DNA of 42,951 bases from an uncultured bacterium (GTDB lineage: Bacteria > Patescibacteriota > Minisyncoccia > Phycocordibacterales > PALSA-1337): the NCBI GenBank assembly GCA_903842025.1, contig CAIMKX010000020.1, positions 1 through 42,951 on the forward strand. Direction: 5' to 3'. A program made the position numbers and the translations under genes. Positions 20,841 through 23,069 of this stretch are shown here, one piece after another. The notes beneath the pieces are model-generated. The model was not told the DNA's origin. It did not search any database and saw nothing but the letters and a program-made list of their open reading frames with translations. Each line of letters opens with the position of its first letter. Positions within the stretch are counted from its first letter, which is position 1.

Positions 20841-20912
20841 TCCGGGATAGCTCAGCGGTAGAGCGATCGCCTGTTAAGCGATTGGTCGCAGGTTCGAATC
20901 CTGCTCCCGGAG
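20841..20912 (+). tRNA. tRNA-Asn (GTT)
   Basis: Acceptor TCCGGGA pairs with TCCCGGA, D arm GCTC/GAGC, anticodon stem ATCGC/GCGAT around the loop CTGTTAA with anticodon GTT, variable TGGTC, and T arm GCAGG/CCTGC with loop TTCGAAT. The discriminator is G and the following CA is not a full encoded CCA. All arms pair perfectly, so it should be functional. Confidence 0.97.
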
Positions 20913-21587: not shown

Positions 21588-21626
21588 CCCGTCGAGAGGA
21601 CTCGTCCTCTCGACGGGTTTCTCTTT
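21588..21626 (+). terminator. intrinsic terminator, 13-bp stem
   Basis: Exact arms 21588-21600 and 21605-21617 (CCCGTCGAGAGGA and complement) with a CTCG loop, followed by TTTCTCTTTT. Confidence 0.88.
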
Positions 21627-21688
21627 TATATCATCAAACGAGTTCTTACTTCGTTCAGCATGTGGAGCAGTATTATCTCTATTCAAAA

Positions 21689-21718
21689 TATACAAATCAT
21701 TCAAAATTTTGCTATACT
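21689..21718 (+). promoter_or_regulatory. promoter of the structured RNA
   Basis: TATACA (21689-21694), 18 bp, TATACT (21713-21718). The expected start 7 nt downstream coincides with the first base of the closing stem of the RNA at 21724. Confidence 0.55.
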
Positions 21719-21723
21719 TTCAT

Positions 21724-21970
21724 TCGGAATAGCGAGAATTGGTATTTTCAAGCTTCGCTTGGAACGGGGGTTGTGAATTAAGTCCGTCACCCGCCATTGT
21801 GCGGTGAATCGCTCGAAAGGGCGAAGGAGCGGTTAAAAGCAACGACTGGCTTAAGGGTGTACCAAGAACCCATTTGGGAGGCGAACGAAGGGTTAGAAAG
21901 GCGACGAAATCCTTTCTTTCTTCAAGTACCTGGCTATTCCGACAAAAAACTCTCATTTTGAGAGTTTTTT
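21724..21970 (+). ncRNA. unassigned structured RNA of about 220 nt with its own terminator
   Basis: No protein frame is convincing here, but the sequence folds extensively. A closing stem TCGGAATAGC (21724-21733) pairs with 21933-21942, and an inner GGTATTT (21741-21747) with AAGTACC (21924-21930). Hairpins follow: CAAGC/GCTTG (21749-21761), CACCCGC/GCGGTG (21788-21806), TCGCTC-GAAA-GGGCGA (21809-21824, GNRA tetraloop), GAACCC/GGGTT (21866-21894) and AGAAAGG/CCTTTCT (21895-21917). A long helix TTAAGTCCGTC (21778-21788) with 21844-21854 has one mismatch. I compared it by eye with RNase P, tmRNA, SRP and 6S RNA. The AAGTCCG/GGCTTA pairing recalls RNase P helix P4, but the flanking consensus and size do not fit, and the others fail too. 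Confidence 0.7.
21944..21970 (+). terminator. terminator of the structured RNA
   Basis: AAAAAACTCTCA (21944-21955) and its exact complement 21959-21970 around a TTT loop, starting 2 nt after the closing stem; the A-rich side makes it potentially bidirectional. Confidence 0.85.
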
Positions 21971-22109
21971 GTTGAAAATAACACCGAATAAATGACCGGG
22001 GATTCCTTAAAAGAGGTTCTAGCGTCCTCTAGCCAGTGGAGCAGATATTTGCAAATATTGCGGCAGATGTATAATGGTGTTAGCTTATCAATCTAATCTC
22101 ATCAACACC

Positions 22110-22397
22110 ATGGCCGACAATCAAAACAATGAAGATCTCATAAAGAGGGCTGACATCCAGCAAATTGCTGAAAAAGGCAAGAAAATATATGAGCAAATAA
22201 AAGTGGACTATGACCCGAAAGAAAAGGGCAAGTTTTTGGCTATCGATGTAGATACTGAAAAAATCTATCTAGGAAATAACAGTGCGGAAGCTGTAACGCT
22301 CGCCAAGCAAAATCATCCTAACAAAGTCTTCTATGTCGTAAAGATCGGTTTCGATGTCGCCGAAACGATGGCAAAGTCATTCATAGAACACAAATAA
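22110..22397 (+). CDS. small conserved hypothetical protein paired with an aspartic protease
   Basis: The 95-aa soluble product has an N-terminal charged helix and a compact core GKFLAIDVDTEKIYLGNNSAEAV..KVFYVVKIG, similar in pattern to DUF5678-type proteins. The ATG at 22110 is used because the frame start at 22074 lies inside the TATAAT at 22070-22075. The leader is about 27 nt without a Shine-Dalgarno site. It overlaps nothing and ends 1 nt before the retropepsin-like gene, so the two are surely co-transcribed and perhaps act together. Confidence 0.8.
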   Translation: MADNQNNEDLIKRADIQQIAEKGKKIYEQIKVDYDPKEKGKFLAIDVDTEKIYLGNNSAEAVTLAKQNHPNKVFYVVKIGFDVAETMAKSFIEHK

Positions 22398-22398
22398 T

Positions 22399-22764
22399 AT
22401 GGTCAAAGGTGTTTTCACTGAAAATATGCCGCTAATTCCTGTACTTGTAGCTTGGGGCCAATCCGTCCAAGCTCCTTTTGTGATCTTGGATACCGGATTT
22501 ACCGGTGATTTACAAGTCACCCCTGAGATAGCGAAGGAACTAGGTTTGAAAGTCACAGGCGTCATGAATGCTCGTATCGCCAATGGACAGGTTGTAGAAA
22601 TTCCCACCGCTTTGGCTATCGCCGTCATGGAAGGCACGAAAAACTACATTGACGTCTTAATATCTGACAGCATGCCACTCGCAGGTATCAGTTTTCTGTC
22701 AAAATTCAATTACAAAGCAATTGTCGATTGTAAATACAAAACAGTTAATCTTGAAAGGGTGTAA
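22399..22764 (+). CDS. clan AA (retropepsin-like) aspartic protease
   Basis: The 121-aa single-domain protein has the active-site turn VILDTGFTGDLQV (Asp-Thr-Gly followed by the hydrophobic-Gly segment), a flap-like ANGQVVEIPTA, and the C-terminal GISFLSKFNYKAIVDCKYKTV in place of the second lobe's hydrophobic-hydrophobic-Gly motif. It should therefore work as a homodimer. There is no signal or membrane segment, so it is cytoplasmic. The ATG follows the upstream stop by one base. The substrate is unknown; the upstream partner is an obvious candidate. Confidence 0.85.
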   Translation: MVKGVFTENMPLIPVLVAWGQSVQAPFVILDTGFTGDLQVTPEIAKELGLKVTGVMNARIANGQVVEIPTALAIAVMEGTKNYIDVLISDSMPLAGISFLSKFNYKAIVDCKYKTVNLERV

Positions 22765-22781
22765 ACGAAAGGATTATATGA

Positions 22782-23069
22782 CCACCTATTCCACTCAAAA
22801 CATTTAAAGGTATCTGTATTGCTGTCATTCACAGGACAAATGATGACGATGATAAGCTCGTAGTTATTCCGGAAAATACAATGATTACAGATGATGAAAT
22901 ATGTGCCGCGACCAATTTCCAGGAACGTTTTTTCAAATCTGAGATTGTTAGGGCGAAACAGGCACAATTTAAGACAGGGACGTGCTCGTTGATCAACAAC
23001 TTTCATTTACTAAATAGTTTCGAACATCCTTCAGCCCTCGGAGCCGCCAAAATAGCCCTGAAAATATAG
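22782..23069 (+). pseudogene. C-terminal remnant resembling an inorganic pyrophosphatase family
   Basis: The frame is open from just after a TGA (22779-22781) and reads PIPLKTFKGICIAVIHR, DDDDKLVVIPENTMITDDEI and TNFQERFFKSEIV. This is the pattern of the second half of short inorganic-pyrophosphatase-like proteins in which the first half carries NYGYVP and DGEELDAYV. That half is missing and the only in-frame ATG is at 22881. The last 40 residues look like read-through into intergenic sequence. I judge it a decayed fragment. Confidence 0.55.
23019..23044 (+). repeat. 26-nt direct repeat, left copy
   Basis: TTCGAACATC then CTTCAGCCCTCGGAGC. The right copy at 27973-27998 differs at two positions. 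The copies bracket purN and purL. Confidence 0.65.

Follow-up and report, generated by a model that had tools for sequence, protein, structure and literature searches.

A conserved structured RNA of Patescibacteria outside known RNA families and its statistical link to large serine recombinases

Orphan structured RNAs are already a known kind; what is new in this study is an RNA class, not a proven function. The raiA-motif RNA (ModT) has been reported as conserved in over 2,500 species (PMC11706538). Like it, the RNA described here is a stand-alone, compact, highly structured and strongly conserved orphan, but it has no Rfam match even at an E value of 10 and it is accessory. GOLLD and ROOL are large RNAs associated with phages and tRNA clusters, and they are several times larger than the present RNA. 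They too are patchy, structured RNAs linked to mobile elements with an unknown role, whereas the present family has no Rfam match and is almost absent from viral contigs and phage records. HEARO, or omega RNA, belongs to IscB- and TnpB-type elements. It is likewise carried by mobile elements in isolated copies; in contrast, the present RNA has no Rfam match, the terminator after its fold leaves no room for a guide, and no nuclease gene is regularly adjacent at its loci. Integrons are known for their attC sites and for cassette-encoded sRNAs. The resemblance here lies in a gene between repeated motifs that look like recombination sites, in co-directional arrays; however, the motif at this locus is the end of a serine recombinase gene and has no attC fold. 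Nothing relevant on noncoding RNAs or recombinase cassettes of Patescibacteria was found in the open-access literature searched. Subscription literature lay outside that search, and novelty was judged against Rfam and open-access literature only.

The RNA gene was analysed within a 42,951-nt stretch of DNA from an uncultured bacterium, referred to as the window. The gene and its parts were located as follows:

21726 to 21975, plus strand: RNA gene from predicted first base to terminator end, about 250 nt; supported by a covariance model R2 match of 102.6 bits and by homologues
21710 to 21718, plus strand: extended -10 promoter element TGcTATACT, at a fixed position across 37 homologues
21726 to 21733, plus strand: P1 5' strand GGAATAGC, pairing with 21933-21940 as a perfect 8-bp closing stem
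21739 to 21744, plus strand: P2 5' strand TTGGTA, pairing with TACCAA at 21860-21865; both-side changes at 4 of 6 pairs
21746 to 21764, plus strand: P3 hairpin; both-side changes at 7 of 8 pairs
21770 to 21843, plus strand: P4, 21770-21774 with 21839-21843 (comparative alignment, helix 4)
21784 to 21832, plus strand: P5, 21784-21787 with 21829-21832 (comparative alignment, helix 5)
21791 to 21804, plus strand: P6 hairpin, missing in short forms (comparative alignment, helix 6)
21810 to 21823, plus strand: P7 hairpin with GAAA loop, missing in short forms (comparative alignment, helix 7)
21849 to 21858, plus strand: P8 hairpin GCTTAAGGGT; middle pair C-G in 27, U-A in 10 and G-C in 1
21869 to 21932, plus strand: optional 3' domain with hairpins P9 (21869-21878) and P10 (21897-21915), not in mid-size or short homologues
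21933 to 21940, plus strand: P1 3' strand GCTATTCC, pairing with 21726-21733
21942 to 21972, plus strand: intrinsic terminator ACAAAAAACTCTCA/TGAGAGTTTTTTGT, a 14-bp stem with T-run directly after P1

A sequence-only reading of this locus had claimed a -10 box that predicts a start at the closing stem, a stem ending 2 nt before a 12-bp terminator, and six further helices inside, one of them capped by GAAA. The promoter claim held, with a predicted start at 21725-21726 and the first base of the closing stem at 21726. The stem does close shortly before the terminator, with a spacing of 1-2 nt, and the terminator stem was found to have 14 bp. The GAAA-capped hairpin also held and corresponds to P7. 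Nine helices were found inside the closing stem in place of six: seven conserved core helices supported by covariation and two in the optional 3' domain. P4 extends towards 21765/21848, with mismatches in the window copy, and P5 lies beyond the conserved P4/P5 internal loop AATTAAGT/TTAAAA, whose bases are invariant. The minimum free energy (MFE) of 21722-21975 was -93.7 kcal/mol, compared with -71.1 +/- 4.6 kcal/mol for dinucleotide shuffles (z -4.9; 0 of 200 as low). The single-sequence MFE fold departs from the comparative structure in places, and the comparative structure is preferable where the two disagree.

The structure was examined by comparison of homologues. In a MAFFT alignment of 19 sequences (A9), from which the 3' domain, where present, had been cut out by hand, 47 base pairs in 8 helices were formed in 96.2% of cells. 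Both-side changes were found at 27 of the 47 pairs, in 100 cells. All 500 shuffles fell below the real alignment on every one of these values, and sliding the register reduced the paired cells to 33-51%. A larger set of 42 sequences gave 93.4% paired cells and both-side changes at 30 pairs (190 cells); this alignment was fitted to the covariance model and should be read with caution. Helix P2, UUGGUA/UACCAA, also occurs as UUGAUA/UAUCAA, UCGGUA/UACCGA, UUGGUG/CACCAA and UUGGCA/UGCCAA, P5 swaps from CCG/CGG to CGG/CCG, and ten sequences have U-A in place of C-G at the P8 middle pair. A four-way junction, in which just one or two bases are unpaired, joins P2, P3, P4 and P8. Two loops are nearly invariant: the one between P1 and P2, which is purine-rich (GAGAG opposite GAG), and the asymmetric P4/P5 internal loop (AAUAAGU opposite UNAAAA). 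The sense strand pairs in 93% of cells, compared with 78% for a hypothetical antisense transcript. G-U cells numbered 292 and A-C cells 23, and therefore selection acts on the transcribed strand as RNA. These comparisons show a core architecture in which P1 and P2 lead to the P2/P3/P4/P8 junction and P5, with optional P6, P7 and 3' domain, followed by the terminator. The criterion for a new RNA family, a covarying secondary structure across homologues, was met.

We investigated whether this structure belongs to a known RNA. In a search of 4227 Rfam families at curated thresholds against the window and seven homologue loci, no match to the RNA was obtained and only tRNAs were found; the only above-threshold family in the window was tRNA-Asn at 20841. 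With E values up to 10, the RNA region gave only chance-level matches far below gathering scores. A tmRNA (RF00023; tRNA-like domain) was not found at the RNA by ARAGORN or Rfam, and neither SRP RNA (RF00169) nor 6S RNA (RF00013) matched at the RNA gene. The same genome carries a full-length RNase P RNA on contig C21 (100.9 bits) and a tmRNA on contig C42 (105.5 bits). As a separate observation, SRP RNA (RF00169) and 6S RNA (RF00013) were undetected anywhere in the 99% complete genome of the window (G000), where they may be divergent. The RNA is absent from 32 of 34 congeners and is therefore no housekeeping substitute for the undetected SRP or 6S RNA. The earlier proposal of an unassigned structured RNA, possibly a new class, would have been refuted by a significant Rfam match or by homologues that vary without covariation. 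Both were checked and neither was found, so the proposal is supported. Its alternative, an extremely reduced known RNA, failed, since RNase P RNA and tmRNA lie elsewhere in the genome and the gene is absent from most relatives. The comparison thus shows, beyond chance, a real, folded RNA from a family outside the known RNA families.

Homologues were found in more than 30 Patescibacteria genomes. When 100 relatives were searched with blastn, several genomes gave matches of 74-83% identity that covered the RNA fully or in part. The exact pattern TGGYTTAMGGRTNTAYCAAGAR occurred in 21 stretches among 84,980 bacterial and archaeal species; 20 were genuine, all from Patescibacteria or unnamed bins, and the 21st, from Methanobrevibacter, was rejected as a homologue, being without every other part of the RNA. 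Covariance models detected the RNA in 16 of 384 genomes of the class of the window genome (about 4%), in 9 of 380 genomes of the phylum (about 2%) and in 4 of 13 genomes of a second class; with lax filters, it was found in 2 of 34 genomes of the genus. Most of these genomes are metagenome bins and the draws were strictly filtered, so each prevalence is a lower bound. Some genomes hold two or three differing copies. No match was found in phage or plasmid records, and only one of 2.9 million viral contigs contained the family; a phage or plasmid origin was rejected on these grounds. These results indicate that the RNA gene is accessory and, as far as searched, confined to Patescibacteria.

The RNA occurs in three sizes. 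The shortest, seen in L020 and L038, is reduced to the core and measures about 117 nt; the intermediate one includes P6 and P7 and reaches about 157 nt; and the longest, to which the window copy belongs, has a further 3' domain ahead of the P1 3' strand. In one lineage (L054, L058, L059, L061) palindromic repeats are inserted into the P6 and P8 hairpin loops, which fits those loops being peripheral. Two of these copies, L058 and L061, are possibly decayed. At L018 (5975-6250, minus strand), an ORF for a small membrane protein of about 52 aa stands where the 5' part of the RNA should be, and in genome G001 (L015, 1350-1530, minus strand) a small membrane ORF has a 30-nt copy of the RNA 5' end on one side and a full RNA on the other. 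An ORF inside the RNA was rejected as an explanation, as these are only two related cases and the L018 copy lacks the 5' part.

The regions upstream of the RNA were aligned by P1. In 37 such regions, the -10 box had its first T in 34, its A in 34 and its last T in 30, and the TG extension had T in 26 and G in 26. A weak TTG was seen at -35, about 17 bp upstream of the -10 box. The distance between the -10 box and the closing stem is constant in nearly all copies, and this fixed-distance promoter is the strongest evidence available that the RNA is its own transcription unit. We infer from promoter conservation, without expression data, an independently transcribed noncoding RNA gene that starts at the closing stem.

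Around the RNA, the window contains three copies of a short motif, designated as scars:

21642 to 21670, minus strand: scar 1, similar to the 3' terminus of a gene for a large serine recombinase; translates as ..MLNEVRT..
22016 to 22044, minus strand: scar 2, same motif as scar 1, 41 nt past the terminator
23018 to 23046, minus strand: scar 3, same motif as scars 1 and 2

Translation of the motif on the minus strand gives ..L(D/N)EVRT.., a C-terminal sequence of large serine recombinases (LSRs). With up to 3 mismatches, it occurs only three times in the 950-kb genome, all within 1.4 kb around the RNA. L003 and L059 hold longer LSR fragments, which can be aligned to one another and to the intact PF07508 recombinase of genome G447. 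The RNA contig of G001, a genome of the same genus, has six consecutive scar sites that share one orientation. Across 28 RNA-bearing genomes there were 17 motif matches, of which 7 were no more than 10 kb from the RNA where about 0.4 would be expected; the reversed control motif gave 0 matches in the same test. Scar matches on RNA contigs have the same orientation as the RNA. In 11 cases an LSR was present on the contig of the RNA, and in 10 of these it was located upstream in the opposite orientation, at a distance of 1 to 31 kb. The criterion for LSR cargo, a position near a recombinase gene or 3'-end scars more often than expected by chance, was met. Some LSR-RNA intervals include core genes, such as argS, and therefore not each interval is one element. 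No scar or LSR can be recognised near many of the RNA copies, LSRs are frequent in every genome of this set, and in genome G040 a scar array was found on a contig that does not carry the RNA; the link between RNA and recombinase is therefore statistical, with att sites unmapped. Scar-to-scar units were seen in the window and in G001, with no empty-site comparison behind them. We infer that the RNA is commonly, although not always, cargo of serine-recombinase elements or arrays.

Several further observations were made on these recombinases. G000 has twelve PF07508 recombinase matches in 950 kb, the highest of 56 genomes searched. Window positions 21642-23046 and locus L094 (G001:C34, about 6 kb) consist of tandem units, each ending in an LSR remnant of 25-30 codons; being all in one orientation, such units resemble integron-style cassette capture by serine recombinases. 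A second recurring motif, ATAGTGAGTRGCGNGGTGGGGTAA, occurs beside the RNA or a recombinase 3' end, downstream of the RNA in L046 and L059 and upstream in L069, L071, L003 and L017. The recombinase C-termini of L088, L089 and L090 end in RTGLEPATPTLQ, QGESNPCY and RGRDSNSR, which resemble translated tRNA genes; this suggests that the 3' end of the recombinase gene may overlap tRNA genes that serve as attachment sites. Direct repeats of att type were sought on either side of the small element in L023, and none stood out.

The genes next to the RNA were also compared, with ORFs called mechanically. Among 111 neighbour proteins, 87 Pfam families were found and none in more than 3, and a constant protein partner encoded nearby was rejected. 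The neighbours include restriction-modification, copper resistance, GIY-YIG, NYN and OLD-like proteins and core enzymes, none recurrent. In one lineage (L052, L054, L058, L059, L061) the RNA lies about 14 nt past the stop of a conserved gene (61 nt in L058), whose product is SWIM-type zinc-finger-like as judged by eye, without a profile test.

With some reserve, we favour the reading that mobile elements of serine recombinases carry a new structured RNA that acts in trans, with a molecular function that is inferred and not demonstrated. The RNA would be cargo of integrative elements or cassette arrays moved by LSRs and would act in trans, not on a neighbouring gene, a step that rests on conservation alone. 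The invariant loops may bind a single conserved partner; a protein or a host RNP is most likely, although no partner, target or ligand has been identified. The constancy of the P1/P2 and P4/P5 loop bases across differing cargo fits such binding. After transfer, the RNA would probably help to regulate or maintain the element or its accessory genes. Control of the downstream gene in cis is unlikely, given that the adjoining gene is often convergent and that there is no regulon, and a base-pairing regulator is unlikely because the unpaired bases are constant between elements. Catalysis by the RNA is not excluded.

Three other explanations were considered and found unlikely. In the first, the RNA belongs to the 3' UTR of the upstream gene, is transcribed together with it and serves to protect or process the mRNA. 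At 31 of 33 loci, the gene next upstream does run in the same direction as the RNA (p of 1e-7 against one half and of 9e-4 against 0.7), and it often ends no more than 20 nt away, with a stop codon often at 7-20 nt. However, the extended -10 promoter is kept at a fixed spacing in nearly all copies, in the window a strong hairpin with T-run (21589-21627) separates the RNA from the upstream gene, and the upstream genes are unrelated, the immediate one being a tRNA in L019 and L020. We consider this reading improbable, although co-transcription with the upstream gene or a 3'-UTR role is not excluded.

The second explanation is a cis-acting riboswitch or attenuator, in which the RNA would act as a sensor and P1 would compete with the terminator, thereby controlling the downstream gene. 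In its favour, P1 closes 1-2 nt ahead of the terminator, some copies, as judged by eye, have a terminator CTCTC that could pair with the conserved P1/P2 loop sequence GAGAG, and the next gene is co-directional in 24 of 34 loci. Against it, the next ORF is convergent in the other 10 of 34, and in L020, L025 and L034 it lies on the opposite strand 5-10 nt past the terminator; no function is shared among the downstream genes, and the GAGAG complement is lost elsewhere without compensation (L021 terminator AACTGTC). The criterion of a conserved co-directional downstream gene of related function was not met, and this reading is doubtful.

According to the third explanation, the element encodes the RNA as an antisense regulator and controls its own recombinase or primase with it via base pairing. 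This could account for the position on recombinase islands, some of which have a Toprim-domain protein next to the recombinase. However, the unpaired bases should then vary with the target, and they are invariant despite differing recombinases and cargo. No complementarity test was made, and the reading remains a remote one.

A folded DNA recombination site of the attC type, not an RNA, is very unlikely. The locus does sit between recombinase-gene scars and is widely scattered, but the promoter and terminator are conserved, the 292 G-U against 23 A-C cells point to RNA-strand selection, and the scar sites themselves lack an attC-like fold. An integron attC was likewise rejected for the GTTCTAAC motif, which resembles one attC half; it has no palindromic partner or attC-type hairpin, and its translation is a recombinase C-terminus.

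A reduced or derived RNase P RNA with AAGTCCG/GGCTTA as helix P4, an echo that the sequence-only reading had raised, is all but ruled out. The likeness to RNase P RNA (RF00010) is limited to the short echo AAGTCC/GGCTTA, and membership is not supported, although the pairing is possible in 95% of cells. GGCUUA has two competing pairings, P4-like with AAGUC or as hairpin P8; the P8 hairpin GGCUUACGGGU shows C-G/U-A covariation, whereas the AAGUC/GGCUU pairing shows none above shuffles (332 of 500 as good). L068 retains P8 through a C-G to G-C change that breaks the P4-like pair. RF00010 (bacterial type A) had no match in the region at E up to 10, the gene is missing in most relatives, and the full-length RNase P RNA on C21 answers whether the genome has another. 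An RNase P P4 formed as a pseudoknot was also rejected for want of covariation.

Returning to the favoured trans-acting RNA, these results describe a complex conserved RNA with its own promoter and no relative among 4227 curated families, in a host group of very small genomes whose noncoding RNAs are hardly explored. The covariance models, the promoter and the minimal 117-nt form make it directly testable. A bolder reading, in which a new class of functional RNA works together with LSR elements, for example by controlling, as RNA or RNP, the integration, excision or expression of the cassettes, is unlikely; if true, it would be an RNA-controlled counterpart of the integron. The scar link itself hints at serial gene-cassette capture by serine recombinases in Patescibacteria, which is worth a study of its own.
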